DNA from: Macrosoma leucophasiata
Lineage: Eukaryota; Arthropoda; Insecta; Lepidoptera; Hedylidae
NCBI GenBank assembly: GCA_036365455.1
Contig: JAWQUS010000030.1
Location: 18,434,001 to 18,498,000 of the forward strand
DNA length: 64,000 bases
Reading direction: 5' to 3'
In this document: one piece after another, positions 3,587 through 46,492 of the stretch
How positions within the stretch are numbered: the stretch's first letter is position 1
Layout of the letters: each line of letters starts with the position of its first letter
The notes under the pieces: generated by a model
Seen by the model: only the letters and a program-made list of their open reading frames with translations
Told to the model about the DNA's origin: nothing
Database searches by the model: none
Made by a program: the position numbers and the translations under genes

Positions 3587-3748
3587 CTAAAGTCTAACAG
3601 TTTTGTGTTCAATATCGATGTACGCGGAAGCAACTACGTCTTTGGTGGCAGTAATAGTTAAATTAACTTCAATGCGTCCTTTTTCAAACGGGCCGTTCAG
3701 TGGAACTTTATCAGTTGGAAATGTAAAATTACGTACGGTATAGCCGCC
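3587..3748 (-). CDS. Gene 1 exon 4 (C-terminus, stop)
   Basis: A 162-nt exon read on the minus strand after a TTATTTTACAG acceptor. It encodes 53 residues starting [20 protein letters not shown] and ending IEHKTVRL, then TAG at 3589-3587. It aligns end to end with gene 2 exon 4. Confidence 0.88.
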   Translation of the reverse strand, partial: GGYTVRNFTFPTDKVPLNGPFEKGRIEVNLTITATKDVVASAYIDIEHKTVRL

Positions 3749-6700
3749 CTGTAAAATAAATTGTCATCATCAATACATAACATAAGACAAACGAGTATTT
3801 GTACATTCAATTTAATATTTTTCCTAGAAACTGATGGAAGAAAAAGAGTAACAAAAAAAAACATTTTGAAATTTTTGTCCGTCAGTCTGGTACGTTATAA
3901 CTTCGAAAGTACTCAGTGGATTTGAACGCGGTTCACAGGAGGATTACATATAATTAGGAGCGTTGTAAAAACAAGTTGTTTTGTTTTGTTAAAATCGGTT
4001 AAGGGAAACTAAAGTTAGTTCAAAGTTTACTTCAAGCAGTGCTTCAAAATTATTCGCATTTTTTAAGATAATTCATAACATTTTTTAATATCGTTTATTA
4101 AAATTTAACTAAAGTATGTATGTACCATTTTGTTCGATAACCTTTTGCCATCTTGTAGGTAGGGACATGATCCCATTGCTATAAAAATTTTGGGACTTCT
4201 CATCAAAATACCGCGACAAGTGGATTTGGCAGTCCTCTCGTGATGTTAACCTAACATTGCATAAAGAATTCTGAAGAGACCGAAACAGGTGGAAATCTGA
4301 AGGTGCAAGGTCAGGACTATACGGCGGATGCATTAACACCTCCCAGCCAAACTCTCTTAATTTTTGCTGAGTGGCTAAAGATGTGTGAGGTCTAGCGTTA
4401 TCATGATGAAACACCACACCCCTTCTGTTGATCAATTCCGGCCGCTTTCTCGCCTCGCTGAGCGTCACAAGATGTGACAGACGGGACGGGGGTCTCCGCA
4501 ACTTGACGTCCGCGGTTCATTAAATAATTCGCTATTAAAGGTACTTACTGATTTATTGAAATTTTATTACAAAAACTAATAGTAGGTACCTATGGGAGCC
4601 CAAGAGGGGATTTTTTAATTTACTCCAGCGCGTCAGATTATGATATAGGAGATACCATGCACTCCGTTCAGTACCTCCACCAAATCTAAGATTTCCATAA
4701 AAGGCTAAACCCTAAGGACTTCCGCCACGAGCTTGCCTTGCATCCAAATCGTCAGAATTTTGGGTGGGAGCTTTGATTGGGTTCACTTGACATCCTCGCT
4801 GAGTGTCTAAAATTCTTGATTAACATTTGACCTTCATTTTTGAAAAAATCTAATGTTTTTGAAAGGGGCGTTGCATCAACATCATGGGTCAAGAGCGTGT
4901 CAGATATTCTGAGGGAGTGTAAAATGTGCCCAAACAATGCTCCTATCCAAAATTCAGACGATTAGGAAGACGAGTGAGATCGTAGCGATCTTTTTGTATT
5001 TTTAATGGTTACCTGTCGGGCGCCTCTATATACAAACTTTAGATTTAGTGGAGGTAATCTACAGGGTGCAAGGTATCTCCCATATCTTAATCTGACGCTC
5101 TCGAGTAAATACAAAGATAGCATCCTGGGCTCTCCTACTGTAAATAAATATTTTTAATCCCATTAATACATAGAGCAACACCGGTGGGGAGTAGCCATAT
5201 GCAGGCTTTTCCCTCTGTCAAAGTACAAGGCCAAATGGGCCTATACCTGTCGCCTAGAAGTTTAAATGTGTGTGAAATTGTATCTGTATTTTGTTTAAGT
5301 CAAGGTGTGAGCACAGTAAATAGAACAAACAGTATGGAAACTAAGCTCATTCTTTAAAATATTTACCTACACTCCATTGAAGCAATAGGGATGTCACTAT
5401 ATTTTTTAAATAATGGTGTTATTATTTTAGCATTTACTGACCTTTAATCAATCGTATTGGGATATTGACTATTTTTTTATTGGTTACCCTGTATTAGTAT
5501 TGTATAAATAAATACTATTTGTCTTTGAAACATATAGTCGATAAGTACTTAAAAGTTGTTAAGATATAACGATTCAAAATGTTGCGAATAGTGAAATGAC
5601 TCAAAACGGCCTAAGTATATAAAATTACTTGGGTGATTTGTATAGTTCTTACGACAGTACAATCTGTGCAATACTGCAACGAGTTGTCGAGACCGGGCGA
5701 GTTTCTCTTCCCCTTACCCACTCGGATAAGCAGGATAATAAATAGCTGCCCCGACGAACTTCGTATCGCCTTAGAGGTATAAACAAATTAACTGTCCAAA
5801 AAATCGAAATAAAAATTGGGGAGAATCACCTGGGGAGAATTTGGGATATAAAAAAAGACTACAACCGATTCTGATACCTACCAACTATACCGCTCTATAC
5901 TGACCGCTCGTCTCGACGCGACACTCGCTAATGTAGCACCGCGAGAACCCTCTGCTTAGAGGCCTCGTAGATGCGCATGTTTGTGTGAGTGCGCCGTTTC
6001 GAACGCTTTGTACGTAGTTTCTCTACTGTTTACAATCTATTTACGGTGCTGTGAGCTTCGTAGTAATAGACGATTTTTGTAGTGTGCGTGTGTGTCGCAC
6101 GCATTTCCCCCCGCAAAAAATGACAGACTGTTTTGCATCGGTAATACAAGCTATGGCTACTCCCCTCCGGTCCGCCGCGACCGGTGGGGCTCGTTGCTGT
6201 ATGCAATAATATTATAAATGCGAAATTTGTGTGTATGTTGAGTTTAAATGCGAAAGTACGTATACTAAATTATCTAAAACTTTCGATATATATATTTTTA
6301 TTTAATAAAAGTGGCAAAAAAGCGTGCAGTTCACATTGATGTTAAGTGATGACTGCAGCCTATAGACACCCATGCAATGAACAGAGGTCAAAATGCAGAT
6401 GCGCTGCCACTCCTGAGGCATTAGGTATTATGCCTCTGTGCCGGAAATTAGAGGGCCGTACATTACCACCTGACGGGAACACGGTAGTGCTGGACACTAC
6501 CATTAAGCGGCAAGTATATTAGGTAATGCGGTGGTGCCTACGCCCGCGAGCTCCGTCACTAGAGCTACCACCAGTAAATTTATGAAAGAGAAATTTAAAA
6601 TTATCGTAACTTTTTTCTATGTAACTGACTCAGTAGTCTTCTGGGAGCCGGCCATCAGTACTACGCTGGAGTCCAGGGTACGACCCCGGGTTGGGGACTA

Positions 6701-9700
6701 TCAGAAATAAAGGAGTAAAATCCTTATTCTGAATACTGCAGAATTAATTTACCACTCATGTGAACTGTACCTACGCTCATTTGGCCTGTTTAATATTAAA
6801 TGTGCTAAAATGCATAATAATAATGGCAACCTATTATACGTCCCACTGCTGGGCACGAGTCTCTCCCCTTTTTGGGGGGAGGCCTGGAGCTTCCTCCACC
6901 ACGGCTCCAATGCGGATTGTTGGAGATATGGGTTAGTGGCCAACCCGCTGTCGGATGTTTTCAAACCCATAAAGCCTTCGGCAAGGTTTAACGACAGCTA
7001 TCTATCGATAGCAACTGGGACCGATGGCGTAACGTGCCCTCCGAAGCACGGAAACGCGCATTTTAATTTGCCACTAGCGGTTACCCATCACACACCCGAC
7101 TGCGCCTGAATCGCTTAACCGAGTAAATTATCGCTTTCGATCGACATAAGTCGCGGGGCAATGCGCGCTTCAAAAAATGCCTAAATCAGCACTAAAATAA
7201 AAAAATAGCTTACAATGGGTAAAGGGCATAACTTCACGATATGTGGATATACTTCTCTCACGGTTATCTCCCAATATTTTCGGATAATGTCATCAAAGAA
7301 CCATAGTTTATTGTCAGTCATATAGTCACAAAATTTGAAGCTGCTTTGAACAAAATTACGCTTGTAAACATTCGACAGAAATTCGTAGGCATAAAACGAT
7401 ATCTGGAATAAATTGATTTGTTTAATTTAGGTACAACATAATTGTAGCTTTAACGGAAGTAAAAGTTGTAATTTCCAACAGAGGCATAACACCTAATGCC
7501 TCAGGAGTGGCAGCGCATCTGCATTTTGACCTCTGGTCATTGTGTGGGTGTCTATAGGCTGAAGTCATCACTTAACATCAATGTGATCTGCACGCTTGTT
7601 TGCCACTTTTATTACATGAAGAAAAAAAAGTAAGTAAAATATATTTTATTTTTAAAGAAAAATGGAAAGAAAAATTTGATTTCAGGCGAGACTCGAACTC
7701 GCGACCTACTGGGAATCTAGTCCAGCCGCTCTTCCAATTGAGCTACTGAAGCCCTGCCCGATTTGTCAAATCTTTCCTTCACATCTATTGCATTGCTTTA
7801 TGGTAGCAGCAGCGCCATCTATTACCAACTATGCTAGTTAGGCAACCGATATAATAGACTTTTCAGTTTATTGAATATCGTAAAGAAGTCGCTTTTACCC
7901 TTAATAATTGTTTACCCAAAATATATTTCACAAGCATGTGTTAATGCGAAATAATATAAAAACAAGTAAAATATAAAAATGAAATATATCTATATCGACG
8001 GTCGATCAGATCGACCTCTGGATTTTGTATAGGTAGATGTCGTAGCTCAGTCATAAAATTTGCTGATATCATGATAATTATGTTCGATCATTTCCCATGG
8101 TTAAAAGAAAAGTTTAGAACGGCGAGCACACACCGCAGCTAAAACAAAATTTCGAATTTAAAATTTTTAAACCAAAAAGGATTTATCAGTACAGTTTTTC
8201 TCTTGAATATTAGGTAGGTACCTACTCCTTACGCGCAGTTTCCATAACGTCATATTGTCATAGTCAGTAGGTAATATTTCGTAGAATTTTACGCGTGGTC
8301 ACCCTACTCATCTGTCAGAGGCCGCCATTATGACTCAAAAACAACGCGCTTACAGCACCTCTGACGGTAGTTAATGTAACCAATGTACGATATGATCAAA
8401 TTAGTTTGTTGAACATTTCATGAATGCGTGCGTTTAACCGACAGTATCGACGAACCATTTTTTTATCATCTTAGATTAAGTACCTATAGATGTAGCCAGC
8501 GTGTGGCCGCTCATGAGACAGCCATATGAAATCATGAGTGTTGCTAGTAAATAAAGTTTCCCAATTTTCTTCCTAATCATTTACTATATCTCGGCAAATT
8601 TTTATGTTAAACATTCCTAAGCATTTTACTTTTATTCAGATTAGTTGAATTGTAACGAATTGATTGAATGATGAATTAAAACATGTGCATCTACCATTCA
8701 ATTAATTCTATACATTTTGCTGAAATATCAAGAACATATCGATAAAATGTACATAATTTGAAATAGGTAGCCATGAATTAGCATTTACTATGCTGCGAGC
8801 TAGGAATAATCTAGGTTCTAGATTATTCACAGCTCGCACTCTAGAACATCATCTACAGGGTATTATTTCTTTGGCCGCGATATTATCTTGGAAAGAATTA
8901 ATATTTTGTTATGGCTTATTCTCAATGGGGAATCGGACAACTTTAGAGAATGTGTCTAAAATTATTCTATATACGTTTACTTAACCATAAAAAATATTAA
9001 TTTTATTATTTAAATATGTTAAAGCACAAGAAACTACACATTTATTTTATAGTTTCACAAATGCCGCGTAAACGGTGCCAAATGACTCTGAACAATGTGA
9101 CGTCAACTGTTTGCAATCAAAGTGAATCTTTTAATTTCATACGACTAACCAAGTGCAAATTAATTTTGTTGAATTTCGTATAACTTATTTTTCGTGTAAA
9201 TAACGTAGAAAATATCCAAAAAAAGGGCCAATAAATCAATGTATCACTTGTGATAAATATTTGTTGTACAAACGTATGACGTCACGTCCTGTGATTGATG
9301 TATCATTCAACATGAAGCACAGATAAACAATATTAAAATTATTACATTTTATTTTGCAATTTAAAAATATAGATACATTAATATTTCACGAAAATATTAA
9401 ATGAGTCGTCGTATTATTTCACAAACATTCATTCTAATCATAGTTTACATTTATTTTCGATAGCTGTCCGATTGTCTATTCTAACACTGTTAGAACAAAA
9501 ACTTTTATGTCTACGAAATTAGGGAGAATTTATAAGTAAATTTATGGCAACACACCAAAATAAGTATGTGGGATTTCGTTGAAAGAAAATCAAGAATTTC
9601 ATGTGAAATGCGCTTTATTTTGAATTGCTATTCAAGTGTTATATGCTTCAACGTGTATTTTGTTCAATAGACATACATTATTTACTAATATCTGTTTACT

Positions 9701-12700
9701 TACGAATGAAAAGTGATGTCGTTTATAGTCCTCGTTTCTGTACGGTTTATACAGGCTAAAATACTGCAACCTCCTATTTCACTGCACACCGTATACACTA
9801 ATCACTTAACTAATTGAGTATTTTTTTCATAAATACCCAAAAACTTATTAATAATCGCCGATATATATTACGTCGAAATCAATAAATAAATGCTTATACG
9901 ATAGGTTATCTATTACAGCAATTGCGATGACAGCTATTTGTTTGGCTAACTTTGGCTGTCACTTACGAAGTTCGCCAAGCAAAAACCGGCACGCCGTAAG
10001 GGACAAAAGATACGATGCTCTATTTCAATTTTCTTATGTGCTTTGTATATAACTGTCTCACTTCCACAAAGCATATGGCGAACATAGCTACGTCTATAGG
10101 TACTTAGTCTAAGCTTATCATTGATCTGGCTTAGCCTCAAATGTGGACAATGGATAATAAACATTGAAATGCAACAAACCATTTCATGAAATTTTCAATC
10201 ATTTTATAATATGCTCAATTTAACGATATGGGCATTCAATCAATGGCTTAATTGTACAGAACCCTGTGTCCGACTCACGTTTGGCCAGTTTTTGTAACTC
10301 GTACAACCTATAACACCACCAATAAGATAATAATAATATAGTAAGTATATAAATGGATCATAATTGTTTCTAACTCTTCTAAAAAAACTACACTTGCGAG
10401 CTTCAAACTGCAATCAAATAAATGTGCGTTGTTCAAAAATATTTTTTAACAATTTTCATGCAATAATTTTTTCTGTAGGTTTTTTATTGCCTACTTAAGT
10501 TTTTGAAATCAGTACAACAGGTCGATATTTTGAACATCTAAAAAATTTGAATAAAATGAAAAAATATTTAAAAAATTGTTTATATATTTTTTGCTTTTTA
10601 ACACAGGATTTCAGGACATCCCAACTATATTTTGTTTTATTTTAAAAATGACAGTACTCTACAATTAATATTGTACATCGAGCCTGCGATAGAGACGATC
10701 GGCTCGTTTCGACTTGGTAGAGCGTTATCTCTATTGCACACTGCCTACGTAAGCATTGACAGTCCGGTATTGATCAATATTCGATCGAAATGGTCGACAA
10801 ACGACTAATATTACGGTGCGAAAGAGATAACGCTCTAAAGACCTGAAAATAAGCCAAAGTCTCTTCCCTTAGCTCGATGTGCAATATTTATTGTTGAGAC
10901 TTTTGCTTTTACTTTCCGTGTTATAAGCTGAGATGGACTTACTGCTTTACTTTTGTAAAGTTGCTATTTTTTTATCATAGAAAGTTTTAGACAACCCCAG
11001 TTTATGTGATTCCAGTTTAAAGCTTGCAAGTGTAGTTGGTAATTAAAAAATGAAACTTACGGTCACTCTGTTGTCAAATGGTGTTGCGTTTTGAAAAAAT
11101 ACAGAGCAGTGGTGAACGCTGTCCCGTCTTCTGAAGCGCATACAGGATGCGTTTAAATACGCCATATACGACGTGTTGTAAAAAGCTATTACTGGACGTT
11201 CAATATCCCACACTTTGACCTAAGGGAAAAAAATAATTACTAGTATTAAACTAATGCCTTGAGCAGTTTGCCAGCAAACAATCTGTCAATACAGAGGCCA
11301 TTGTAAAATAATAATTCCTGTAATACCTAATAAACGGCCCTGCAACATCCGGCACAGAGGCATAACACCTTAGGCCTCAGGAGGAGAAATATTGAATTGG
11401 TTCGCTGTCTTGCTACACCACGTTAAATCTAGACAGTGCGAGCGATGCCATTCAATTTCGATTCAATGACTATTTATTTACGAGCGTCAAACCCCTCTTG
11501 GTTAATAGAACGCAGAGAGTAAAATGAAGCGGGCATGACCCCGCGGCTGGTGTAGATCGTAAGCGATCTACTCGGTTAAGCAATACGGGCGGAGTCGGGT
11601 GTGTGATGGGTGACCGGGAGTGGCAAATTTAAATGCGCGTTTCCGTGCTTCGGAGGGCACGTTAAGCCGTCGGTCCCGGTTGCTATCGTTAGATAGCAGT
11701 CGTTAAACCTTGGAGGAGGCCTTATGGGCGGTTTGAAAATATCCGACAGCGAGTTGACCACTATCCCGTATCTCCATCAACCCGCGTTCGAGCAGCGTGG
11801 TGGAGTCAGCCCCATGCCTCCCATCAAAATGGGGAGAGACTCGTGCCCGCAACTTTGTTTGCGTGGAATAGTGACTTTGGGCAGCGCTTTTGGATATATA
11901 TTTTGGTTAATTTTGGATCATAAACACTTTTGGGTAGCTAAAAAATCTACTTAGCAGTAATGTTTCTCTGTACACGTATGGCCATCGGGGATAAAAGCAC
12001 CCAGGCTGCTAGAATTGCGAAAAATTGCTAAATTGTTTAAACGCGCATTCATCCTACACTGAATCGTATTTTCGGAAAGGCTATTTTAAATTTGTATGCG
12101 TAATAGGTATTTTTTTATAGAAAACTAGCTGTTGCCCGCGGCTTCGCCCGCGTGGATGTAGTTTTATAATCCTGAATTTTCTTTGCTATAAACCTCACGG
12201 AGCCCGAGACCTTTACAACGAATGCAAAACCGTGGCAATCGGATCGTGCATTCTGGAGTTATAGCGTCAGGAAGGAAAACCCGACTTATTTTTATATAAT
12301 AGATTATTGTACAGTTTTGTAAAGTTTCAATCAATTAGTGCTTCTAACAGAGAATGAAAGATAAAAGACAGATCTATGCATAATATAGGCACTTCGAAAG
12401 AGCCGGCAGAAGAGAAAAATTGAATATTAACGTTGTGCATTTTTACTTTCTTGCTATCACTGTTTATGAGATACAGCCTGGTGACAGACATACGGATGGA
12501 CGGACAGACAGACAGACAGCGGAGGGTTAGTAATAGGGTCCGTTTTTACCTTTTAGATACGGAACCCTAAAAAAGATAGAAGATAGATACAGAATAGTTT
12601 AAAAATATTCGATATGATTCTTTAAATTGTTTTTATTTCTGAACCGATTGACATGAAACAAACACTAAATCATAAGTGAAACTTACCACAATATATTAGT

Positions 12701-14470
12701 GAAAACTGCAAATCGGGTAAGACGTTTCTGAAATTAGCGTGCATGAACACACAGACAAACAAAAATTTTTCCGGGATAATAATTATACTTTAACGTTTGG
12801 CGCACAACACTGGGTACTTTTAATCCCGGAAAAATGGCATATCCGATTTGCAGTTTTCACAAATATTAGGTTGGGGAAAAAGTTTCCTCGCATTTTTTAA
12901 GATAATTCAAAACATTTTTTAATATAGTTTATTTAAAAATTTTGGGACTTCTCATCAAAATACCGTGACAAGTGGATTTGGCAGTCCTCTCGTGATGTTG
13001 ACCTAACATTGCATAAAGAATTCTGAGGAGACCGAAACAGGTGGAAATCTGAAGGTGCAAGGTCAGGACTATACGGCGGATGCATTAACATATGGCTATA
13101 GATGTGTGAGGTCTAGCGTTATCATAATGAAACACCACACCCCTTCTGTTGATCAATTCCGGCCGCTTTCTCTCAACTTCTTGCTTTAATCTCATCACTT
13201 GTTCGCAGTAGAGTTCAGAATCGATAGACCTGCCTGGTGGTAATGGCTCATAATGAATAGTGCCCTTCCAATCCCACTACACACACAACATCACCTTATT
13301 GCGAGTTAACCCGGGTTTCGCCACAGTCTGCGAAGCCTGACCGGCCTTTGACCACGACCTATTTCGCACGTTCTTGTCGTACGTGATCCACTTTTCATCA
13401 CCAGTTATCAGCTTCTTCAAAAATGATTCGGTTTCATTACGTCGTAATGAAGAATCACAAATGAGTACACGGTTCATTAGGTCTCTTTCAGTGAGCTCGT
13501 GAGGTACCCAAATATCGAGCTTTTTTTATACCCAGCTTTTTTCAAATGCCCCAAAACTGTTTTGTGATCAATTCTCAGTTCTTCAGCTACGTCGTAACTA
13601 CTGATATGACGATCTTGCTCCACTTTTTCAAAAATGGCATCCATTTTATCCGTAATACGGCGACCAGAGCGAGGTGCATCTATGACATCAAAATTTCCGG
13701 ATTGAAAACGCTTAAACCAAATTTGTGCTACTCTCACAGACACTGCACTAGGTCCATAAACATCGCAAATTTTTTTCGCGGCATGCGTTGCATTTTTACC
13801 TTTTTTGTAGTAAAATTTTAAAATGTATCGAATTTCTTCATTAGATTCACTCATCTTGACAGTACGAAAAACAAATGAAAATCACACATTTGCATAATTT
13901 GAATTTGGAATTATGTTCTTCAAAATTTTAACTTTCATCATACCAAAACCAGCCAGATACAAATACTACAGCCAAAGAGATTTTATTACAAGTTCATACA
14001 TACTATAATGCGAAAAGACTTTTTCCCCAACCTATTATATTGCGAAAAGACTTTTTCCCCAACCTATTATATTGCGAAAAGACTTTTTCCCCAACCTATT
14101 ATATTGAATAGAATAGAATAGAAACGGTTCAGAAATGAAACTTGGTATAATAATAATTATTCCAAGTTGCCCCTCTGTCAAAGTACAAGACTTGGACAGA
14201 CATTGGTCTTGTACTTTGACAGAGGGGAAAGCCTGCATATGGCTACTCCCCTCCTAGGCCGTAGGCCCGTGTTGCTCTATGATTTTACCTTATCACCATA
14301 CATTGAAACCTTGTTTGTTGCCTTTAAATGTTATAAAGGTACCTACTTTATGCTCCGAAATGGAGGATTAAATAAATGATTTTTACCTTGATAGCGGCCA
14401 CAAATGAAATGATTGAACAAAAAGCTATAAAATTACAGAATATTTTACATTTGGTTACAATCTGCGACAT
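3587..14470 (-). CDS. Gene 1: secreted DUF1091-like protein, four exons
   Basis: A four-exon minus-strand gene spliced 14470-14387, 11219-11061, 7402-7214, 3748-3587 (197 residues plus stop; all introns phase 0, GT..AG). Exon 1 is a signal peptide starting [14 protein letters not shown] and ending ...FVAAIK. Exon 2 has an NAS glycosylation site and one cysteine. Exon 3 carries [13 protein letters not shown] and two cysteines. Exons 3-4 join to read [16 protein letters not shown], the CP..PG.Y.V.N pattern I associate with DUF1091, an insect family of secreted proteins without established function. The protein is probably extracellular and may bind a ligand (inference only). Gene 2 is about 78% identical by my manual count (153/197), with identical exon lengths, which argues strongly that both are real genes. 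The introns are 3168, 3658 and 3465 bp and packed with transposons. No frameshift or stop is seen. Confidence 0.85.
4050..4505 (-). pseudogene. Mariner transposase C-terminal fragment (gene 1 intron 3)
   Basis: The minus strand encodes the mariner C-terminal catalytic part: [40 protein letters not shown] and a terminal [13 protein letters not shown]. The second and third catalytic aspartates (HHDN and APSD) are 34 residues apart, the DD34D spacing of mariners. The N-terminal half is missing and the 3' terminal repeat is eroded (only 'tcgcattttttaagataatt' remains), so it cannot move. Confidence 0.85.
4580..5148. mobile_element. Long-terminal-inverted-repeat DNA element, copy U1
   Basis: The left end (GAGCCCAAGAGGGGATTTTT, then a GTCAGATTA...GGAGATACC...AAATCTAA stretch) reappears inverted at the right end (about 5035-5146), giving arms of roughly 100 bp. 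Related copies are at 21735-21930 (one arm) and 55955-56305 (both arms). The core keeps a peptide-like minus-strand reading (4752-4937) that may be a remnant of a coding parent. Long inverted repeats suggest a MULE or fold-back type element; the superfamily is inference. Confidence 0.6.
5169..6203. mobile_element. CATAGAGC MITE copy K1, split by a nested element
   Basis: The left part (5169-5311) begins CATAGAGCAACACCGG and the right part (6054-6203) ends in the inverted form, GCTACTCCCCTCC...TTGCTGTATG. Complete copies at 17837-18129 and 62380-62686 show the uninterrupted order 'aaggtgtgag' then 'tttcgtagtaatag'. Here that point is opened by the element at 5312-6053. Confidence 0.7.
5312..6053. 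mobile_element. 742-bp DNA transposon nested in MITE K1
   Basis: The left end CACAGTAAATAGAACAAACA and the right end, read in reverse as CACAGCACCGTAAATAGATT, form imperfect inverted repeats of about 30 bp. The flanks repeat GTGAG or AG, depending on where the end is placed. No transposase frame is seen, so it is non-autonomous. Confidence 0.6.
6300..6577 (-). repeat. Abundant BMC1-tail-like SINE (family A), near full length
   Basis: On the minus strand it starts TTTACTGGTGGTAG..., contains the GGCGTAGGCACCACC and CCGGCACAGAGGCATAA blocks and ends ...TTTGCCACTTTTATTA plus an A-rich tail. The layout resembles the 3' end of the Bombyx BMC1 LINE from memory. It lies in gene 1 intron 3 and has no matching copy in block B, so it arrived after the duplication. 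Confidence 0.8.
6620..6735 (+). repeat. tRNA-derived SINE (family V), short copy
   Basis: A degenerate tRNA-like head (CTCAGTAGTC..., then GTACGACCCCGG as a decayed B box) is followed by 'ggggactatcag' and 'taaaatcctt'. The same order occurs at 37563-37757 and 45735-45882. Confidence 0.55.
6817..7173 (-). repeat. 5S-rRNA-derived SINE, copy S1
   Basis: On the minus strand a 5S-like head (GGTTAAGC..., then GATGGGTAACCGC-type block) is followed by a unique body and a tail CCCAGCAGTGGGACGTATAA. Flanks AAAATGCATA (6807-6816) and AAAATGCCTA (7174-7183) form a 10-bp target duplication. Block B keeps the empty site 'gctaaaatgcataaatcag' at about 23220, so this copy inserted after the duplication. 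Confidence 0.8.
7214..7402 (-). CDS. Gene 1 exon 3
   Basis: A 189-nt exon, acceptor TTTATTCCAG, donor GTAAGC, phase 0 at both ends. It encodes 63 residues: [20 protein letters not shown] at the start, FCDYM in the middle and KLCPLPI at the end. Eleven residues differ from gene 2 exon 3 by my count. Confidence 0.9.
7465..7631 (+). repeat. Family A SINE, 5'-truncated, with target duplication
   Basis: The 3' half of the repeat ends in ACATGAAGAAAAAAAA. The flanking AAGTAAAA at 7457-7464 and 7632-7639 is the target duplication. Block B (about 23515) has a single AAGTAAAA at this site and no insertion. Confidence 0.8.
7640..7965 (-). repeat. tRNA-like repeat T1 (gene 1 intron 2)
   Basis: A copy of the roughly 307-bp tRNA-containing repeat, here adjacent to the SINE at 7465. 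The cloverleaf part is 7679-7754 on the minus strand. The left border carries AAGTAAAATAT and the right border AAGTAAAATAT, consistent with a second insertion into the same spot. The gene 2 intron has its tRNA-like repeat at a different position. Confidence 0.7.
7966..8461 (-). other. Gene 1 intron 2, unique sequence
   Basis: Non-coding sequence matching 23517-24450 in block B piecewise, with interruptions only where insertions lie. It serves as an alignment anchor for the duplication. Confidence 0.6.
8470..10113. mobile_element. 1.64-kb non-autonomous DNA transposon in gene 1 intron 2
   Basis: The left end CTTAGATTAAGTACCTATAG and the right end, read in reverse as CTTAGACTAAGTACCTATAG, are inverted repeats with one difference in 20. 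Flanks TTTATCAT (8462-8469) and CTTATCAT (10114-10121) form an 8-bp target duplication with one mismatch. Block B holds the empty site as a single CTTATCAT near 24452. No transposase is recognisable; a hairpin sits at about 8793-8838. An 8-bp duplication suggests the hAT or P superfamily. Confidence 0.75.
10122..10666 (-). other. Gene 1 intron 2, unique sequence
   Basis: Non-coding and collinear with 24460-25150 in block B. No exon-like reading with splice sites was found. Confidence 0.6.
10667..10888. mobile_element. AATATTGTACATCGAGC MITE, shared by both blocks
   Basis: Terminal inverted repeats AATATTG.ACATCGAGC flank about 220 bp. The interior also holds a second inverted pair, GTAGAGCGTTATCTCT versus AGAGATAACGCTCTA. 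The copy at 25151-25365 sits at the same intron position in gene 2, so it predates the duplication. A fragment also occurs in gene 3 intron 3 (about 42286-42350). Confidence 0.75.
11061..11219 (-). CDS. Gene 1 exon 2
   Basis: A 159-nt exon, acceptor TTTCCCTTAG, donor GTAAGT, phase 0. It encodes 53 residues, starting [20 protein letters not shown], with YLNASC and RRD motifs, and ending TPFDNRVT. It joins exon 3 as ...[13 protein letters not shown]. Confidence 0.9.
11333..11387 (+). repeat. Family A SINE fragment
   Basis: Only the CCGGCACAGAGGCATAACAC core block with a few flanking bases remains. Confidence 0.55.
11528..11855 (+). repeat. 5S-rRNA-derived SINE, copy S2 (gene 1 intron 1)
   Basis: The 5S-like head shows GGTTAAGCAATACGGGC and GATGGGTGACCG; the body matches 30021-30375. 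The 3' tail is cut at 'gactcgtgcccgc', so the RTE-like end is lost. Absent from gene 2 intron 1. Confidence 0.75.
12127..12305 (+). repeat. AGCTGTTGCCCGCGGCTTCG dispersed repeat
   Basis: A conserved head, a middle 'ttctggagttatagcgtcag' and the end 'cccgacttatttttatata' are shared with 15262-15458. A widespread lepidopteran repeat type; its class is not settled from this window. Confidence 0.65.
12306..12690. other. Gene 1 intron 1, repeat-like sequence
   Basis: Contains a GACAGACAGACAGACAG-rich stretch and 'gatacggaaccct', both typical of dispersed insect repeats. No coding signal. Confidence 0.4.
12691..12867. repeat. Fold-back inverted repeat next to a mariner end
   Basis: ATTAGTGAAAACTGCAAATC at the left is matched by its inverse, GATTTGCAGTTTTCAC, at the right. 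An inner pair, TTTTTCCGGGATAA and TTAATCCCGGAAAAA, nests inside. It lies immediately before the mariner terminal repeat and is non-coding. Confidence 0.7.
12868..14033 (-). mobile_element. Mariner element, internally deleted
   Basis: Terminal repeats AGGTTGGGGAAAAAGT (left) and ACTTTTTCCCCAACCT (right) bound the element. Minus-strand transposase pieces are 13854-13477 (starting [20 protein letters not shown], with the helix-turn-helix region) and 13477-13277 ([16 protein letters not shown], first catalytic aspartate). Frameshifts and a deletion near 13093 remove part of the C-terminal domain. It is inactive and probably of the cecropia-like subgroup. Confidence 0.85.
14034..14097. repeat. Two extra tandem copies of the mariner terminus
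   Basis: The unit 'attatattgcgaaaagact' plus 'ttttccccaacct' (32 bp) occurs twice directly after the normal mariner end, so three termini stand in a row in one orientation. Confidence 0.85.
14162..14281. mobile_element. CATAGAGC MITE copy K2, internally deleted
   Basis: The right terminus (GGCTACTCCCCTCC...GTTGCTCTATG) is intact. The left part is reduced to a small inverted copy, CCCTCTGTCAAAGTACAAGA against its complement. Block B has the fuller copy 26890-27230 at the same intron 1 position, so the insertion predates the duplication and the deletion is specific to block A. Confidence 0.7.
14387..14470 (-). CDS. Gene 1 exon 1 (start codon, signal peptide)
   Basis: Minus-strand ATG at 14470-14468, then 28 residues: [14 protein letters not shown], a hydrophobic core ([12 protein letters not shown]), then IK and donor GTAAAA. 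The start is chosen because gene 2 has the same codon, length and donor. Predicted cleavage lies near the end of the exon. Confidence 0.88.
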
Positions 14471-34700: not shown

Positions 34701-35124
34701 GTGCGTTTTACCGGTGATGACCTACGGTGCCGAGACGTGGTCTCTCACTATGGGTCTCGTACGAAAGCTCCAAGTCACTCAGCGGTCAATGGAAAGGGCT
34801 ATGCTCGGCGTTTCCCTACTGGATCGAATCAGAAATGAGGAGATCCGTAGGCGAACGAAAGTCGCTGACATAGCCAAGCAGATTTCCAAGCTGAAGTGGC
34901 AATGGGCAGGGCACATAGCTCGGAGAACCGATAGCCGCTGGGGCAGAAAGGTTCTCGAGTGGAGACCACGTATCGGCAAACGCAGCGTAGGACGTCCACC
35001 TGCAAGATGGACCGACGACCTGATCAAGGCTGCAGGTACCCGCTGGATGCACGTCGCTTCCGATCGGTCGGCATGGAGGTCCTTGGGGGAGGCCTATGTT
35101 CAGCAGTGGACGTCTTATGGCTGA
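31798..35124 (+). pseudogene. RTE-clade LINE endonuclease/reverse transcriptase with one in-frame stop
   Basis: One reading frame runs 31798-35124 with a single TGA at 32680-32682. Either methionine at 32122 or 32128 is a plausible start; the N-terminal stretch before it looks like read-through of the 5' region. Domains: APE-type endonuclease (LVTYNTRTLR at about 32299, LSEVRR catalytic glutamate at about 32389, GDFNAKLG just after the stop at about 32707, SDHRMV at about 32983); reverse transcriptase (KNYRPISLL at about 33852, AFVDYEKAFDS at about 34057, RGVRQGDVISPLLF, catalytic FADD at about 34360); RTE-type C-terminus (LKWQWAGHIARRTDSRWG). The protein ends ...WTSYG, then a short GATGATGATGAT tail (35127-35139). 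The stop splits the endonuclease, so this copy is probably dead but very young. Confidence 0.88.
32704..35124 (+). CDS. RTE LINE, 806-codon open frame after the stop
   Basis: The continuous remainder of the LINE frame: the second half of the endonuclease (GDFNAK..., SDHRMV), the complete reverse transcriptase with FADD at about 34360, and the C-terminal region. Without the N-terminal endonuclease half, a protein started at the methionine at 32704 should lack nicking activity. No further frameshift is seen. Confidence 0.8.
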   Translation: MGDFNAKLGKGCDNELRVGQFGCGNRNPRGQRLANFLEKEELFMMNSFFKKPPHRKWTWMSPDGSTKNEIDFIKTNKKHIFNDVSVIHRVKTGSDHRMVRGTLNLNIKIERSRLMKSTLRPTISHIQNPESFQLELKNRFACLEDCISVDDMNDRLVETVQSVGYKYFKTRRPNRPQKLTDQTLNLMAERRSMTLQTSDEAEKYRQLNRQIQQSLRHDIRSFNTKCVEETIERNKGSKVFARDLSIGQSRLMQLKTEDGSLASTKPEVLREIERFYGQLYTSVAQPASDLVRDPRAKLTRHYTEDIPDISLYEIRMALKQLKNNKAPGEDGITTELLQAGGSPLLKVLQKLFNSVLFEGTTPEAWNRGVVVLFFKKGDKALLKNYRPISLLSHVYKLFSRVITNRLARRFDDFQPPEQAGFRKGYSTIDHIHTLRQVIQKSEEYNRPLCLAFVDYEKAFDSVETWAVLQSLQRCHIDYRYIEVLKCLYKNATMSVRVQDQCTKAIPLQRGVRQGDVISPLLFTNAMEDAFKLLEWQGLGININGEYITHLRFADDIIVMAESLEDLSTMLEDLNRVSQRVGLKMNMDKTKVMFNNLVSPTPVSVGNSMLEVVDDYVYLGQTIQLGRSNFEKEVIRRIQLGWAAFGKLRSVFSSNIPQSLKTKVFNQCVLPVMTYGAETWSLTMGLVRKLQVTQRSMERAMLGVSLLDRIRNEEIRRRTKVADIAKQISKLKWQWAGHIARRTDSRWGRKVLEWRPRIGKRSVGRPPARWTDDLIKAAGTRWMHVASDRSAWRSLGEAYVQQWTSYG

Positions 35125-37757: not shown

Positions 37758-39545
37758 CCGTTTTTTTTTTTTTTTTTTTTTTTTTATGTCTGCAGGTTGA
37801 AGGACAAGCAAACGGGCCACCTGATGGAAAGTGGTCACCGTCGCCTATGAACATTTGCAACACCAGGGGAGTTGCCAACGCGCTGCCAGCCCTGAAGGAC
37901 TCTTTTGACGCCATTTTTGAAGAACCCCATATTGTAGCACCTAGGGAACACCTCAGAGGGAAGTTCGTTCCACAATTTACACGTTCTGGGCAGGAACGAA
38001 CGTGAAAACCGCACCGTTGAGCACTGCCAGGTGTCCAGTCGGTGTGGGTGGAACTTCTCTCTTCGGCGGGTAGTACGGTGTAGGAAAAGAGACGGTGGCA
38101 CCATGTCAAACAGTTCCGCAGAGCACTCACCATTGTAGAGACGGTACAACACGCACAGACTCCCAATGTCTCTGCGCAGGCTCAGATGTTCGAGCCTGTC
38201 GGTAAGTCCTGGATCGTTAACAATACGAACGGCGCGTTTTTGTAGGGAGTCAAGTGGACCAAGCTGGTATTTGGGGGCTCCCGCCCACAAATGAGAGCAG
38301 TATTCCAGATGGGGCCGCACTTGGGCCTTATAAAGCTGTAGTAGCTGCCCCGATGTGAAATACTGCCTCGCTTTGTTAAGCACCCCCAACTTTTTGGATG
38401 CCAACTTGGTCTTACACTCAATGTGACTCCCGAATTGCACTTCGTTCGATATGTCAACGCCCAGGATACCGATACTCTTATCAACGGCGAGCGGAATGCC
38501 CTGGAACTGTGGTGCTACAATGAATGGGGTTTTTTTTGCGGTGAACGCGCAGACTTGTGTCTTCGAGGGGTTAAACTGTACTAAATTAAGTCGACCCCAA
38601 TCCGAGACCCGCTCCAGAGAGTGCTCGATTTCAGACACAAGTCTAGTCCTGCTTTCCTCGATAAGTGTCCGAGAGGCATTTGCACGGCTAGTGTAGTATG
38701 CATCTCCCGTACTATCATCGGCATAGCAATGAAAATTGGAGTGTTGCTCCAATATTTCATTGATATGCAGAAGAAAAAGCGTGGGAGATAACACAGAGCC
38801 TTGCGGCACACCAGCGTTGATAGGTAGTCTGTCTGAGCGCTGACCGTCAACTAAGACTTGTATATAACGCTCAGACAGAAAGCTGGCTGTCCAGTTGCAT
38901 AGCCTCTCGGGAAGACCGTAGGATGGAAGTTTCGCGAGGAGTGCCCTGTGCCGGACCCGGTCAAAGGCCTTAGCAATGTCCAGGCTTACAGCCAATGCCT
39001 CCCCACTCTTGTCCAAGGCGTGGGACCAATGGTGCGTGAGATATACTAGAAGATCACCAGCAGATCTACCATGACGAAATCCATATTGGCGGTCACTGAT
39101 CAGCTGATGATCCTCTAGATACTGCAGCAGTTGCGTATTGATCACACGCTCCATGACTTTACAGAGTAGGGAGGTTATTGCTATGGGCCTATAATTGGCC
39201 GGGTCTATCCACGCGTGCCCACAATAGCGACAGGTCCTTGTCTTCAAAATGGTCAAGACGGCGACAACAGACATCCTCTCGGACATACAGACATACCCCG
39301 GCGCGGCGAACGAAAGTGTTCTCCAGAGTATAGCCGGGGTAAGTAAGGTACGATGTGTCAAGTGGAGAGGATATTTGTGTCTCCGTCAGAAAGAGTAGGG
39401 CTGGCTTAGCCGTTTCAAGGTGGTGGTGAACGGCGTTAAGGTTGGTATGTAAACCCCTGATGTTGCACATGTCCACAGTAAATGTGGGAGGGGCGTCCGC
39501 TGCGTTTCTACTTTTTTTCTTTTTTTTGACCATTTTTTTATATTT
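37758..39545 (-). mobile_element. Jockey-like LINE with large internal deletion
   Basis: Best copy of the family. The poly(A) tail is the T-run at 37759-37785. The minus-strand frame from about 39190 to 37835 holds the reverse transcriptase: DPANYRPIAITSLLCKVMER, SLDIAKAFDRVRHRALLAKL, NAGVPQGSVLSPTLFLLHIN, catalytic YADD at about 38715, and a C-terminal region ending ...SPGVANVHRRR. Upstream, a different frame (39533-39205) has the endonuclease start (VDMCNIRGLHTNLNAVHHHL, LLFLTETQI). The two are joined at about 39205 with the endonuclease core, linker and first RT motifs deleted. It is therefore non-autonomous. The family is placed in the jockey/CR1 group from motif style; the exact clade is uncertain. 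Confidence 0.85.
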
Positions 39546-39960: not shown

Positions 39961-40490
39961 AGAAAAAATTCTATTATATCGGTTGCCTAACTAGCATAGT
40001 TGGTAATAGATGGCGCTACTGCTACCATAAAGCAATGCAATAGATGTGAAGGAAAGATTTGACAAATCGGGCAGGGCTTCAGTAGCTCAATTGGAAGAGC
40101 GGCTGGACTAGATTCCCAGTAGGTCGCGAGTTCGAGTCTCGCCTGAAGTCAAATTTTTTTTTCCATTTTTCTTTAAAAATAAAATATATTTCACAAGCAT
40201 GTGTTAATGCGAAATAATATAAAACAATTATTAAGGGTAAAAGCGACTTCTTTACGATATTCAATAAACTGAAAAGTCTATTATATCGGTTGCCTAAGTA
40301 GCATAGTTGGTAATAGATGGCGCTACTGCTACCATAAAGCAATGCAATAGATGTGAAGGAAAGATTTGACAAATCGGGCAGGGCTTCAGTAGCTCAATTG
40401 GAAGAGCGGCTGGACTAGATTCCCAGTAGGTCTCGAGTTCGAGTCTCGCCTGCAGTCAAATTTTTCTTTCCATTTTTCTCTAAAAATAAA
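39890..40490 (+). repeat. Tandem pair of tRNA-like repeats T5-T6, period about 307 bp
   Basis: Cloverleaf parts 40076-40149 and 40383-40456. The inter-unit spacer, including 'acaagcatgtgttaatgcga' and 'gcgacttctttacgatattc', is the same as in T2-T3. Confidence 0.8.
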
Positions 40491-41896: not shown

Positions 41897-42055
41897 TTAT
41901 TGCTTATATTGTTTTAATTCCATGTCAGCATACATATGCACTATATTACCATAGATGGGGTGAGTGATGTTACAAACGATTCTTCCCTTTGTGATAGGAA
42001 AATTGGCAGGAATGTTAGCGACAGGAATCGTCATGTTGGCCACGTAGTAAAGGCC
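41897..42055 (-). CDS. Gene 3 exon 4 (C-terminus, stop)
   Basis: 159 nt after a TTTTTTTTTTTCAG acceptor; encodes GLYYVANMTIPVANIPANFP to ELKQYKQ, then TAA at 41899-41897. An AATAAA signal overlaps the stop. Confidence 0.87.
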   Translation of the reverse strand, partial: GLYYVANMTIPVANIPANFPITKGRIVCNITHPIYGNIVHMYADMELKQYKQ

Positions 42056-45000
42056 CTGAAAAAAAAAAATGAAGTTCTAAATTAGTTGTCGTAAGCGTTG
42101 GTGGTGTTGGTAGCTTTGGTGACGTTGGTGATATTGGTGATGTTGGTGGCGTTAATGGCGTTGGTGGCGTTATTAGCGTTGGTGACGTTGGTGGCGTTAA
42201 TGGCTTTGGTGGCGTTGGTAGGGTTCGTAGTGTTGGTGATGTTGTAGGTGGTGGAGGAATAGCGCTAATTCAATGTATTCAGTGTTCAGCAGGGATAACG
42301 CTCTACGAAGTCGAAACTAGCCGATTGTCTCTTTCGTAGGTTCGAACGTAACAACAAAGTCTCAGGGGTCGCAACGTATCTGTATTTTGACCTCTGGTCT
42401 TTATGTAGGTGTTTATAGCCTGCAATTATCACTTAATATCAATACACTCGCTAAACCGCGGACGGACAGACAGACGGACATGGCGGAACTATAAAGGTTG
42501 TTTACTATGGCACCCTAAGCGCTCCTGCACACGGTGCCGCCAACGCGCCGCCGCCGCGCACTTACCCCTCCCTGTCTGTTTGATGTAGCTGTTCCATTGC
42601 CGACCGCGTATGAAGGTGCAAGTGCGTAACTTTTTAACTTCTAACTTTCGTACGCAGCCGGTAATGGAACAGCTACATCAAACAATTGTCTGTTGTTGTA
42701 ATGTAACTGTTTTTTTTTTTGTTTTTTTTTTTAGTTTGGCTTTATGTAGTCGGCCTGTCTCGAGACGGCACTAGTCTACTTCACCGGGCAATCGGCGAGC
42801 GCAGAGGGCGCTCCAGCCTAAATAAAAAGTTAGCGCAACTGTCTAAGGGTGACCCATTCGGGTCCGTGCCGCGGCTTATTGGCGGTGCAACTTTCGCTCT
42901 ACTCCATTCGGTTGGCACATGTAGCTGTTCCATTACCGGCTTCGTTTATAGGAGGGACAAGTGAGCGGCGGCGGCGCGGCGACGGGCTTTGCGCGGCCCG
43001 GTGGCGGCGCAAAGCCCGTCGCCGGGCCGCGCAAAGCGTGTGCAGGAGCGCTAAAAAGTAGCCTCAGTCATACTGGAACAATGGGACATCTTGCGTCTTT
43101 CATCGGCCGTTGTTCTATTGGTATTCTGTAGAAGGCATCACGGAGTACTGGGCCGAAGAATATCACATTTTCCTCGAGAAGTTCACATAAACTCCAGTGC
43201 AATTCAACAAAACTCCGCTTGTACATGTTACTTAGAAATTCGTAGAAGAAGAATTCGATCTGAAACAATAATTTTCTTTTTCAACAATTGTTTTACCTTT
43301 TTTTTATGTAATATAAGTGGCAAACAAGCACGTAGTTCACGTTGATATTAAGTGATGACTGTAGCCTATAGACACTTACACAATGACCAGAGGTCAAAAT
43401 GCAGATGCGTTGCTACTCCTGAGGCTTAAGGTGTTATGCGTCTGTGCCGGAAATTACAGGGCCGTACATTACCTCCTGACCGGAACACGATAGTGCCACA
43501 CCGCGGACACTCGGCCAAACTTGCATACAAACGCTTAATTTGGTTTCTATTACACAGACATCAATCAGTGACGTGTATTTACACGTGCACCTGTGTGCGA
43601 CCAACCGTCGCCCATAAGAGGCGAAGGGGTTGAGTGATGCGAGCAAATCGAGCGGGACGTCGAAGTGTCCATTCTATACGTAGTATTATTACATATTCTC
43701 TGATAGTGCTGAACACTGCCATTTAGCGGCAAGTAGGTATATTAGGTAATGCGGTGGTGCCTACGCCCGCGAGCTCCGTCACTGGAGTTTACCACCAGTA
43801 AAAACCTTTACCTGTCCAACTGCTCGGGTCGGGATGTGACGACCCTACCTACGAAGAGAATTCTTCCACTACTACAGTCAGTCAACCGAACAGTACTCGT
43901 AGTAAGTGCAATAACGCAAGATGGGCAGCAGCGTCCTGCGATAAATCTACCGTCACTGCGATCGCCAATTTTTATGCCAAGCTTGGCGATTATGGCATAT
44001 CCCCCATATTTGGTCAAGCAATAAACATTTTTCGGCTAATATGATGATGATGATTTTAATATATACAGGATGTTCCAGAAATCAACAATAAACCGAAAAC
44101 GGGTGTTATGAAAAGTCATGACAGTTATTATAAAAATGTGAAAAAAAATATTTGTCATGAATTTTTAATTTTATTAGGATATTAAAATTAAGGACTTTAA
44201 ATTATTTTAAAAAACATCGGAAAAACTGACATCCTGTGATGATCTTTCAAGTCCTAAGACTACAAATATAACTTTTTTGTAAAATATTTTTTCCTGTATT
44301 GTGGTCATGTCTAACCCTTCTGTAAATTACAGTTTCTTTAAATCCTTATCTCTTTAATGTCTTTGCCTTCGGCGGCGTCGTGTGACGGGTTGCTCACTTC
44401 CCTTCAAAATGGTCGAGGAGAGCAATGGCTGCCACATGCGTCATACTCGTGAACGGGTGCTGATTGTGGGGAGGTCTGTTAAGATTTGCGGTTGTTATAA
44501 CACGATATTAAACTATTGATGGGTATCTGTGTATGTGTTAATATGCCATGGACGTTCACATTATCTTTATTCTATTTTAATTCTTTTTAATAATATTTGT
44601 ATTAAATCTAAGGTTTTGATAAAAGAGCAACACGCGTTTGTTGGGTAGCGGAGTTCTTCTCAGTAGTGCCTGCACTTGGAACTCTGCTAAGTGAATGACT
44701 ATGATTATGACGAACAGATTTTTCTTTTTCTTCAATGAAGAATATATACTTTTATATACTTTTTACTGGTGGTAGAGCTCCAGTGACGGAGCTCGCGGGC
44801 GTAGGCACCACCGCATTACCTAATATACTTGCCGTTAAATGGTAGTGTTCAGCACTATCGTGTTCCGGTCAGGTGGTAATGTACGGCTCTGTAATTTCCG
44901 GCACAGAGGCATAACACCTAATGCCTCAGGAGTGGCAGCGCATTTGCATTTTGACCTCTGGTCATTGTGTGGATGTCTATAGGCTGCAGTCATCACTTAA

Positions 45001-46492
45001 CATCAATGTGAACTGCACGCTTGTTTGCAACTTTTATAACATAAAAAAATAAATAAAAAAAAATACATATCTTCGGTTTAGCTGCCTGGAGTAAGGCAAC
45101 TAATACTAGTTACTAGATTTCAGGAGTTACTAATACAAACCTTGCATTTGCGATCGATTGGAACAACGAATTGGATTGCTATATTGAGGTAATGAATAGG
45201 GTCTCTCCGACTGTACTGAACACATGACACATTCATATAAGATATAGCTCTCTTGTCATAGTACACCAAGTTTGGTCTCTCAGTACTTATATATGATACC
45301 TGTAAAAAAAGAACCATGTTAATAACTGGTGGTAGAGCTGGCGTGAGGAGATCAGAAATGAGGCGATCAGCATGAGAACAGTAACCGACATAGCCCACCG
45401 AATAGCGAAACTCAAGTGGTAGTGGGCAGGGCACATAGCTCGCAGAACTGGCGGCCGTCGGGCTAGAAGAGTTCTGGAGTGGGACCGCGTACCGTAAGAC
45501 GAAGCGTAGGCAGGGGAGGCCTGCGACGAGGTGGATTGACGACCCGGTGAAGGCCGCGGGCAATCGTTGGATGAGGGCGGCCCAGGACCGTTCGTTGTGG
45601 TAATCTTTGGGGGAGGCCCTTGTCCAGCAGTAGACGTCTTTTGGCTGAAATAATGATTATGAGAACTGGCGTAATATGCTTGGCACTTATAAAGCTTTTC
45701 AATGGGGAGAGGTGATTCAAGGATTTCGAAATCTATATAAAAACTACCTAGTGGTAGGTCACTACTACTACTATGCTGGGGTCCCGCGTTCGATTCCCGG
45801 ATGGGGGGCTATCAGAGATAACAGTGTGAAATCTTTTCTTCTCTGGTTCTATCGGGATTTTTCAATTTACTTTACTCTTTTTCACTGGTGGTAGAACTCC
45901 AGTAACGGAGTTCGCGGGCGTAGACACCACCGCATTACCTAATATACTTGTCGCTAAATGGTAGTGTTCAGCACTATCGTGTTCCGGTCGTGTACGGCCC
46001 TGTAATTTTCGGCACAGAGGCATAAAACCTTAGGCCTCAGAAGTGGTAACGCATCTGCATTTTGACCTCTGGTCTTTGTGTAGGTGTCTATAGGCTGTAG
46101 TCATCACTTAACATCAATGCGAACTGCAAGCTTGTTTGCCACTTTCATAACATTAAAAAAAAACTGGAAGTTTCCCACTACCTCGGAGTTTGATATCCCC
46201 GGAGATGTCAACAAGCTCGCCAACTGTTACATAGGCAAAAACTTAACCGGCGAATCACGGACGCAATTCTGGTCGCGTGTCTGTCTTACGCAATTTCCAT
46301 CAGGGTCACGTGTCCTGACGCGAGTTTAACATTTTTTACCCATCACAAAAAGTGCAAGGCAGCGCTAAAAAGTTTTCCCTTCCATAATATTTTAGCTACA
46401 ACATTTACCTTTTTTGCTGTTACATAGTTGACAATACAGACGGACAAAAAGCAGACACATATACAATAAAATAGTTTCAAGGTTACACACAT
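41897..46492 (-). CDS. Gene 3: secreted DUF1091-like protein, four exons
   Basis: Third, more distant member, spliced 46492-46409, 45299-45141, 43259-43074, 42055-41897; 195 residues, all introns phase 0. Exon 1: signal peptide MCVTLKLFYCICVC...VTAKK. Exon 2: VSYISTERPNLVYYDKRAIS, with MNVSC and RRD as in genes 1-2. Exon 3: IEFFFYEFLSNMYKRSFVEL, SLCELLEENVIFFGPVLRDA and ARCPIVP. Exon 4: GLYYVANMTIPVANIPANFP, ending ELKQYKQ. The join reads ARCPIVPGLYYVANMTIP, again CP..PG.Y.V.N, and FFGPVL after the cysteine is closer to typical DUF1091 proteins. Exons 1-2 match the lengths of genes 1-2 exactly. Introns are 1109, 1881 and 1018 bp. The likely role is extracellular; the function is not known. 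Confidence 0.85.
42090..42256. repeat. GTTGGTGGC minisatellite in gene 3 intron 3
   Basis: About 18 imperfect 9-bp units of the GTTGGTGRY type. On the minus strand it lies about 40 bp upstream of the exon 4 acceptor. Confidence 0.85.
42286..42446. repeat. Fragments of two older repeats
   Basis: 42286-42350 matches the inner part of the ACATCGAGC MITE ('gggataacgctctacgaagt'). 42363-42446 is an eroded 3' piece of a family A SINE. Confidence 0.55.
42520..43052. mobile_element. PIF/Harbinger-like non-autonomous element with GC-rich hairpin
   Basis: Inverted ends GCGCTCCTGCACACG and CGTGTGCAGGAGCGC, flanked by TAA on each side. An inner inverted pair, AGCTGTTCCATTACCGG-type, and a compound hairpin at 42965-43040 (GGCGACGGGCTTTGCGCGGC against its inverse) make it strongly self-complementary. 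A 3-bp TAA duplication with such ends suggests PIF/Harbinger (inference). It ends only about 20 bp from the exon 3 donor of gene 3. Confidence 0.7.
43074..43259 (-). CDS. Gene 3 exon 3
   Basis: 186 nt, acceptor ATTGTTTCAG, donor GTATGA, phase 0. Encodes IEFFFYEFLSNMYKRSFVEL to ARCPIVP. The GTATGA donor is weaker than GTAAGT but keeps the GT and the phase. Confidence 0.87.
43306..43804 (-). repeat. Family A SINE split by repeat R2
   Basis: Parts 43306-43495 and 43702-43804; the join point (CACGATAGTG|CTGAACAC) is intact in other copies. Lies in gene 3 intron 2. Confidence 0.8.
43496..43701 (+). mobile_element. CACACCGCGG repeat R2, complete, with 7-bp target duplication
   Basis: Bounded by GATAGTG at 43489-43495 and 43702-43708. 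Starts CCACACCGCGGACAC and ends ATTACATATTCTCT. This copy gives the uninterrupted order needed to reconstruct R3 at 52549/56537. Class unknown. Confidence 0.8.
43822..44058 (+). repeat. LINE 3' tail fragment with ATGATGATG end
   Basis: 'gggatgtgacgaccctacct', 'gcgatcgccaatttttatgc' and a terminal TAATATGATGATGATG. The same body is at 62985-63325 and partly at 46640-46815 and 59540-59640. The tail fits RTE-type elements. Confidence 0.6.
44379..44740 (+). repeat. Retroelement-tail repeat, uninterrupted copy
   Basis: Partner of 15091-15715; carries the unoccupied junction 'atatgccatggacgttcac'. Located in gene 3 intron 2. Confidence 0.7.
44759..45061 (+). repeat. Family A SINE, full length
   Basis: TTTTACTGGTGGTAGAGCTC head, all internal blocks, tail AAAAAAATAAATAAAAAAAA. 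One of the best copies for a family consensus. Confidence 0.85.
45141..45299 (-). CDS. Gene 3 exon 2
   Basis: 159 nt, acceptor TTTTTTTACAG, donor GTTTGT, phase 0. Encodes VSYISTERPNLVYYDKRAIS to VVPIDRKCK. Confidence 0.87.
45335..45662 (+). pseudogene. RTE LINE 3'-end fragment (gene 3 intron 1)
   Basis: Reads RNEA..MRTVTDIAHRIAKLKW and then WAGHIARRT-type sequence, followed by 'ccagcagtagacgtcttttg' and 'gaaataatgattatga'. It is 5'-truncated and opposite in strand to gene 3. Confidence 0.75.
45735..46240 (+). repeat. tRNA-derived SINE (family V) split by a family A SINE
   Basis: 45735-45882 holds the head ('gttcgattcccgg', 'ctatcagagataac'), and 46164-46240 the rest ('ctggaagtttcccactacct'). 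The copy at 37563-37757 shows the uninterrupted join. Confidence 0.65.
45883..46163 (+). repeat. Family A SINE, full length, nested
   Basis: TTCACTGGTGGTAGAACTCC head to A tail; inserted into the family V SINE, hence younger. Confidence 0.8.
46409..46492 (-). CDS. Gene 3 exon 1 (start codon, signal peptide)
   Basis: ATG at 46492-46490 (context AGACCATG). 28 residues, MCVTLKLFYCICVCFLSVCI then VNYVTAKK, donor GTAAAT. Length identical to exon 1 of genes 1-2. No clear TATA/initiator pair was found upstream. Confidence 0.85.

Follow-up and report, generated by a model that had tools for sequence, protein, structure and literature searches.

Four-exon genes in the window

The window analyzed here is a 64,000-nt stretch of the genome of the lepidopteran Macrosoma leucophasiata (616 Mb in 61 contigs), taken from contig JAWQUS010000030.1 (hereafter C30), positions 18434001-18498000. 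It contains three minus-strand genes, A, B and C, each divided into four short exons and each encoding a small protein predicted to be secreted. An earlier note on this DNA had proposed the three genes, with exons of 84/159/189/162 nt in two of them and 84/159/186/159 nt in the third, GT..AG introns in phase 0 and open frames of 195-197 residues. An independent scan of the window recovered 12 of 12 exons with these lengths and signals, exact to the base. Once joined, the exons measure 594, 594 and 588 nt and specify proteins of 197, 197 and 195 residues, each with a single stop.

Numbering from the first base of the window, gene A comprises exon 1 at 14387-14470 (84 nt, with the start codon and a predicted signal peptide), exon 2 at 11061-11219 (159 nt), exon 3 at 7214-7402 (189 nt) and exon 4 at 3587-3748 (162 nt including the stop codon). 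The corresponding exons of gene B lie at 27337-27420 (84 nt, again with the start codon and a predicted signal peptide), 25902-26060 (159 nt), 23264-23452 (189 nt) and 20222-20383 (162 nt including the stop). In gene C they are found at 46409-46492 (84 nt, start codon and predicted signal peptide), 45141-45299 (159 nt), 43074-43259 (186 nt) and 41897-42055 (159 nt including the stop). All 12 exons read from the minus strand. Intron lengths range from 1018 to 3658 nt; all nine introns are GT..AG and in phase 0, and their acceptors look good as judged by eye. The longest exon measures 63 codons, as the note had it; four short exons separated by kilobase introns are easily missed by frame scanning.

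Genes A and B share a TATATA motif at -54 and a TCAGT motif at -24 before the ATG, neither of which is found upstream of gene C. An AATAAA sequence occurs 115 nt downstream of exon 4 in gene B and 33 nt downstream of exon 4 in gene C. By inspection, all three proteins begin with a hydrophobic segment, and they have three N-glycosylation sequons in common; secretion, as suggested in the note, is thus the predicted fate of these products.

The products of A and B are only 35-37% identical to that of C, yet the exon boundaries of the three genes fall on the same alignment columns. Profiles of single exons (exons 2 to 4, built from A, B and C) score 109-138 bits on their own source exons. In 60 first-order Markov shuffles of the window they reach at most 12.8, 15.7 and 11.1 bits for exons 2, 3 and 4, respectively; since the profiles include the exons being scored, the gap shows only that these exons stand apart. 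Insertions and deletions were also compared between A and B, the noncoding part being drawn from the 11 of 27 aligned blocks judged collinear with the genes (the others are repeats or out of order). The noncoding alignment (2434 bases) shows 22 such changes; the 594 coding bases show none, where 5.4 would be expected (P = 0.005). Judged from the DNA, all three are true protein-coding genes.

The cluster extends beyond the window and is inverted

The surroundings of the window were searched with the C and B proteins and with the exon profiles over 134 kb. The search showed that the cluster has six intact members: E, F and G on the plus strand, left of the window, and then the three minus-strand genes. 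Gene E (C30:18413297-18416528) and gene G (C30:18426536-18432157) have exons of 84/159/189/162 nt, gene F (C30:18419696-18422724) has exons of 84/159/189/156 nt, and all three retain intact GT..AG introns. Because the plus-strand trio lies to the left of the minus-strand trio, the two sets are arranged tail to tail. The cluster is therefore larger than the three genes of common orientation first described, and it is inverted. Five of the genes (A, B, E, F and G) have an alignable block of approximately 90 nt upstream of the coding sequence, which is interrupted by a gap where A and B carry the TATATA motif.

Two fragments accompany the intact genes. An orphan exon 4 (exon D, C30:18407359-18407517), with an intact acceptor and stop codon and no recognizable exon 1, 2 or 3 within the 23 kb searched upstream, is what remains of a seventh copy. 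Exon 4 of gene G has been partly copied a second time (C30:18432272-18432391); this piece, alike at 119 of 120 bases and adjoining a TA-rich repeat, is a very recent partial duplication. The exon profiles of A, B and C gave nothing above 11.9 bits between 18384001 and 18407358, or to the right of gene C up to 18518000, and tblastn with the six proteins outside 18413000-18481000 returned only exon D and one match with E = 0.25.

A divergent relative is present on a second contig (C1, at about 2656266-2657687), where stretches resembling exons 2, 3 and 4 score 38.0, 37.9 and 19.7 bits; the profile used for this search left out the homologs P0014, P0016 and P0018 (see below for the homolog set). 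The Cydia strobilella protein P0017 also finds its closest match in this genome there (E = 9.7e-8). Beyond C30 and C1 the matches all had E > 1; only the best candidates were scored, so that the gene count is a lower bound. A PF06477 family search over this genome returned nothing, but its 14 control genomes stayed silent too, so that the result carries no weight.

Two other observations were made along the cluster. At 19247-19318 of the window, minus strand, a weak exon-2-like match covers 19 residues (17.5 bits, E = 3e-4, the best of 60 shuffles being 12.8 bits), and blastn gave no match between this segment and the other exons 2. To the left of the cluster lie two frames for MADF (Myb/SANT-like) DNA-binding domains (L024:1548-1925, minus strand; L024:6250-6657, plus strand), possible landmark neighbors for analyses of synteny.

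Membership in the DUF1091 family

The earlier note had suggested that the three proteins belong to DUF1091 (Pfam PF06477, InterPro IPR010512; curated Pfam cut-off 25 bits), an insect family without known function. Scores against this profile are 25.7 bits for A, 30.6 for B, 32.4 for E, 35.2 for F and 32.7 for G, placing five of the six cluster genes above the cut-off. The match spans exon 3, which in gene A holds most of it, and the start of exon 4. The cluster genes resemble other DUF1091 genes in the profile match as well as in their multigene habit, and they are new members of this known insect family.

Profile searches returned three and then 18 proteins at E <= 0.001, of which 17 come from 10 named species, all moths or butterflies: Scirpophaga incertulas, Dendrolimus kikuchii, Pararge aegeria, Maniola jurtina, Anticarsia gemmatalis, Bicyclus anynana, Spodoptera frugiperda, Euphydryas editha, Plodia interpunctella and Cydia strobilella. 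The eighteenth is a JGI protein. The profile of A, B and C was needed for this result, a search with the single sequence of B yielding no protein at E <= 0.1 among six candidates. The best homolog outside the six-row query profile is Maniola P0004 (E = 4.2e-64). No relative was confirmed among the viral contigs and genome contigs searched.

All homologs bear names of the type "hypothetical", "uncharacterized" or "unnamed". Examples are K1T71_009959 and K1T71_009961 of Dendrolimus kikuchii, LOC123877116 and LOC123877117 of Maniola jurtina, and LOC126910710 of Spodoptera frugiperda, which are homologous over most of their length but share only 27-38% identity with gene B. Sixteen of the 18 match DUF1091 at E <= 1 and, of three scored singly, one is above the cut-off and two are below. 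Within the family these proteins form a lepidopteran branch: the 18 aligned homologs have an invariant L.N.YKRSFV, whereas A, B, E and F read YKRNF. Homologs are probably clustered in other insects too, as suggested for Maniola and Dendrolimus by gene names that are consecutive or nearly so, and for Euphydryas by three matches on contigs of equal length.

In Drosophila, DUF1091 is described as the commonest conserved domain among otherwise uncharacterized genes, with 91 genes in that class (PMC8664486). The excerpts of the literature naming DUF1091 report no tested function, and a literature search on DUF1091, and on CheB or the ML domain in Lepidoptera, found no paper on lepidopteran DUF1091 in the library used.

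A predicted lipid-binding fold

AlphaFold2 models of two homologs were compared with known structures, and the best matches were GM2-activator and NPC2. Both models are predicted to form the two-sheet beta-sandwich of the ML superfamily; ergosterol-bound yeast NPC2 and MD-1/MD-2 are also among the structures matched. Identity to GM2-activator and yeast NPC2 amounts to 10-17% over the aligned part. None of the six cluster proteins has a listed match to the ML sequence profile (PF02221) at E <= 1, and one of the 18 homologs touches it, at E = 0.26. On these models, the "without known function" of the note can likely be narrowed to a lipid-binding type of fold, similar to that of ML proteins and GM2-activator.

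Altogether, the data are best explained if the cluster consists of spliced lepidopteran genes for small secreted DUF1091 glycoproteins with an ML-type fold, an interpretation to which we assign a probability of roughly 0.78. Under this interpretation, A, B and C would be transcribed from the minus strand and spliced from their four phase-0 exons, exon 1 supplying the signal peptide and exons 2-4 the mature secreted glycoprotein. DUF1091 proteins would be grouped by predicted fold with the GM2-activator/NPC2/MD-2 (ML) proteins, and the cup of the beta-sandwich would bind an extracellular lipid or some other hydrophobic ligand, a type of binding that the modeled fold makes likely. The ligand could then be carried or presented to a membrane or a receptor. 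The six-gene locus would have grown by repeated local duplication, with amino acids changing fast around a conserved core. What this adds to a known family is knowledge of how far the cluster really extends and of its inversion, together with a predicted fold that offers testable biochemistry.

Several points weigh against this interpretation. Gene C scores 20.8 bits against DUF1091 (E = 5.2e-4), below the cut-off: the assignment made in the note was correct as to the family and holds for A and B, whereas C, although homologous to A and B and to other lepidopteran proteins, is not scored as a member. The fold was modeled on homologs 31-34% identical to gene B and not on the window proteins; the TM-scores of the matches at E <= 0.001 are moderate (0.34-0.56), and the weaker Foldseek matches mix MD-1/MD-2, Asf1 and other sandwiches. 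Sequence searches of solved structures with B or with the A/B/C profile gave chance-level matches only (E >= 0.43). In print, the CheB42a paper states that its data did not support a link of CheB to GM2-activator (PMC2827562), and an alternative idea, predicted binding of Piwi by Drosophila DUF1091 paralogs, appears in PMC12014135. At the locus itself, gene A shows neither AATAAA nor ATTAAA within 700 nt past the stop, whereas B and C have a signal, and recent constraint on the A-B pair is weak (see below).

Candidate roles of the proteins

The cluster is compact, has a common upstream block and a predicted lipid-binding fold, and is accompanied by one isolated relative elsewhere in the genome, which makes these lepidopteran genes a convenient set in which to look for a ligand and a tissue. 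CheB proteins carry DUF1091, and a DEG/ENaC gene adjoins CheB42a. On a narrower form of the explanation given above, the cluster would serve chemosensation as a moth accessory family equivalent to CheB of Drosophila: its proteins, released by support cells of sensilla, would bind lipids or hydrocarbons of the cuticle in gustation or in the detection of contact pheromones. The broad fold class is the one proposed for CheB in the title of Starostina 2009. The excerpted text on CheB42a describes a secretable member of a multigene family, expressed at male foreleg sensilla and proposed as a relative of GM2-activator (PMC2827562); fast evolution and local duplication also fit a role in recognition. 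Proteins annotated as CheB are mentioned for heteropteran bugs as well (PMC9801554). In contrast, the 91 Drosophila DUF1091 genes placed in one unnamed class (PMC8664486) stand against 12 CheB genes (PMC2827562), so that most members of the family need not be CheB-like. The chemosensory proposal is a tentative one, and both the tissue and a CheB-like role in contact-pheromone detection would be guesses by analogy.

The proteins could instead be ML-type lipid binders with digestive, immune or reproductive duties in gut, fat body or accessory gland, acting for instance in lipid sensing like MD-2 or in sterol uptake like NPC2. The structural matches to ergosterol-bound yeast NPC2 and to MD-1/MD-2 are in line with such duties, as are the secretion signals and the fast evolution, but nothing points to a particular tissue or ligand, and we hold this proposal to be possible though doubtful. 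A more speculative notion, rather improbable as formulated, is that the five recent copies, with their common upstream block, a conserved ML core and sites free to change, form a fast-diversifying, lineage-private repertoire of secreted lipid binders that discriminates cuticular lipids of mates or host plants.

Divergence of the gene copies

A tree was built from the six genes and 14 homologs, the partial sequences P0014, P0015, P0016 and P0018 being omitted; the Cydia branch is very long. A, B, E, F and G form one clade (support 100/99), with the internal arrangement (A,B), (E,(F,G)) and with no one-to-one counterpart among the 14 homologs. Gene C falls outside this clade; its placement among the other lineages is not resolved by the tree, nor is the root. 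The lineage-specific tandem expansion proposed in the note therefore stands for the five genes, which are set apart as a clade from the proteins sampled, and does not extend to C.

Pairwise omega values among the five genes range between 0.43 and 0.78, except for the A-B pair, where omega is 1.5; values are below 1 at 2dlnL (twice the difference in log-likelihood) > 3.84 in 6 of the 10 pairs. A one-ratio model gives 0.72 for the five genes; the fit improves (2dlnL 15.8) under two classes, one holding 37% of codons at 0.16 and the other the remaining codons at 1. A positively selected class did not reach significance in these genes (M1a versus M2a, p = 0.067, computed with our own script and without a test for gene conversion). 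Between A and B, the coding changes distribute as 31/17/13 over codon positions, third positions having the fewest (chi-square p = 0.012; third versus the rest, p = 0.056), and exon 4 departs from noncoding DNA at p = 0.025 before correction for picking that exon. We do not claim positive selection; a conserved core with a loosely held remainder would be the plain reading.

The A-B pair invites another reading, in which gene A, and perhaps also B, is a relaxed or decaying copy of little function. Their omega of 1.5 is not different from 1 (2dlnL 1.4). Coding bases differ at 61 of 594 positions (10.3%) and collinear noncoding bases at 221 of 2434 (9.1%; Fisher p = 0.39), a similarity that points to weak recent constraint on the pair. 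In simulations, 61 neutral changes spare both frames, starts and stops in 5.9% of runs; the A branch is longer than that of B (0.20 vs 0.058), and the canonical polyadenylation signal missing from the 700 nt past the stop of gene A would suit decay. Set against this are the lack of insertions or deletions in 594 coding bases (P = 0.005) and the retention, in both copies, of splice sites, four sequons, the cysteines of the mature part and the TATA/TCAGT motifs. We consider decay unlikely. Weaker by far is the idea that open frames were joined by chance and that no genes exist: short exons invite it, with 9-20 random exon-like stretches for each length, kind and strand, but it is refuted by the homology of the paralogs, the matching exon borders, the shuffled windows (at most 15.7 bits against 109-138) and, decisively, by homologs in 10 other species, the first of which were found with the profile of the three window proteins alone.

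Repeats and other features in the window

Genes A, B and C lie among numerous repeats. Ten sequences resembling transfer RNA (tRNA)-Ser(AGA) occur at 7677-7753, 15932-16006, 16237-16313, 24087-24163, 40075-40151, 40382-40458, 52013-52089, 53945-54021, 54175-54251 and 61161-61236. Each is contained in one copy of a dispersed 204-210-nt repeat, which is probably a tRNA-derived short interspersed nuclear element (SINE). A match to tRNA-Leu(AAG) at 28713-28793, plus strand, is single in the window.

A long interspersed nuclear element (LINE) occupies 31789-35124 on the plus strand, with endonuclease (297 aa) and reverse transcriptase (813 aa) frames in the same reading frame, separated by one stop codon. 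A repeat similar to it starts at 45351, in the intron 51 nt upstream of exon 2 of gene C. A second type of LINE is represented by reverse transcriptase frames at 37835-39385 (minus strand) and 54847-55239 (plus strand), and pieces related to this type were seen at about 2.7-3.0 kb and 18.9-19.1 kb. Fragments of mariner/Mos1-like transposases lie in introns 3 and 1 of gene A (4109-4516 and 13477-13881, both minus strand) and in intron 3 of gene B (20733-21644, plus strand), with matches to HTH_48 and DDE_3, the latter below the Pfam cut-off (three frames scanned).
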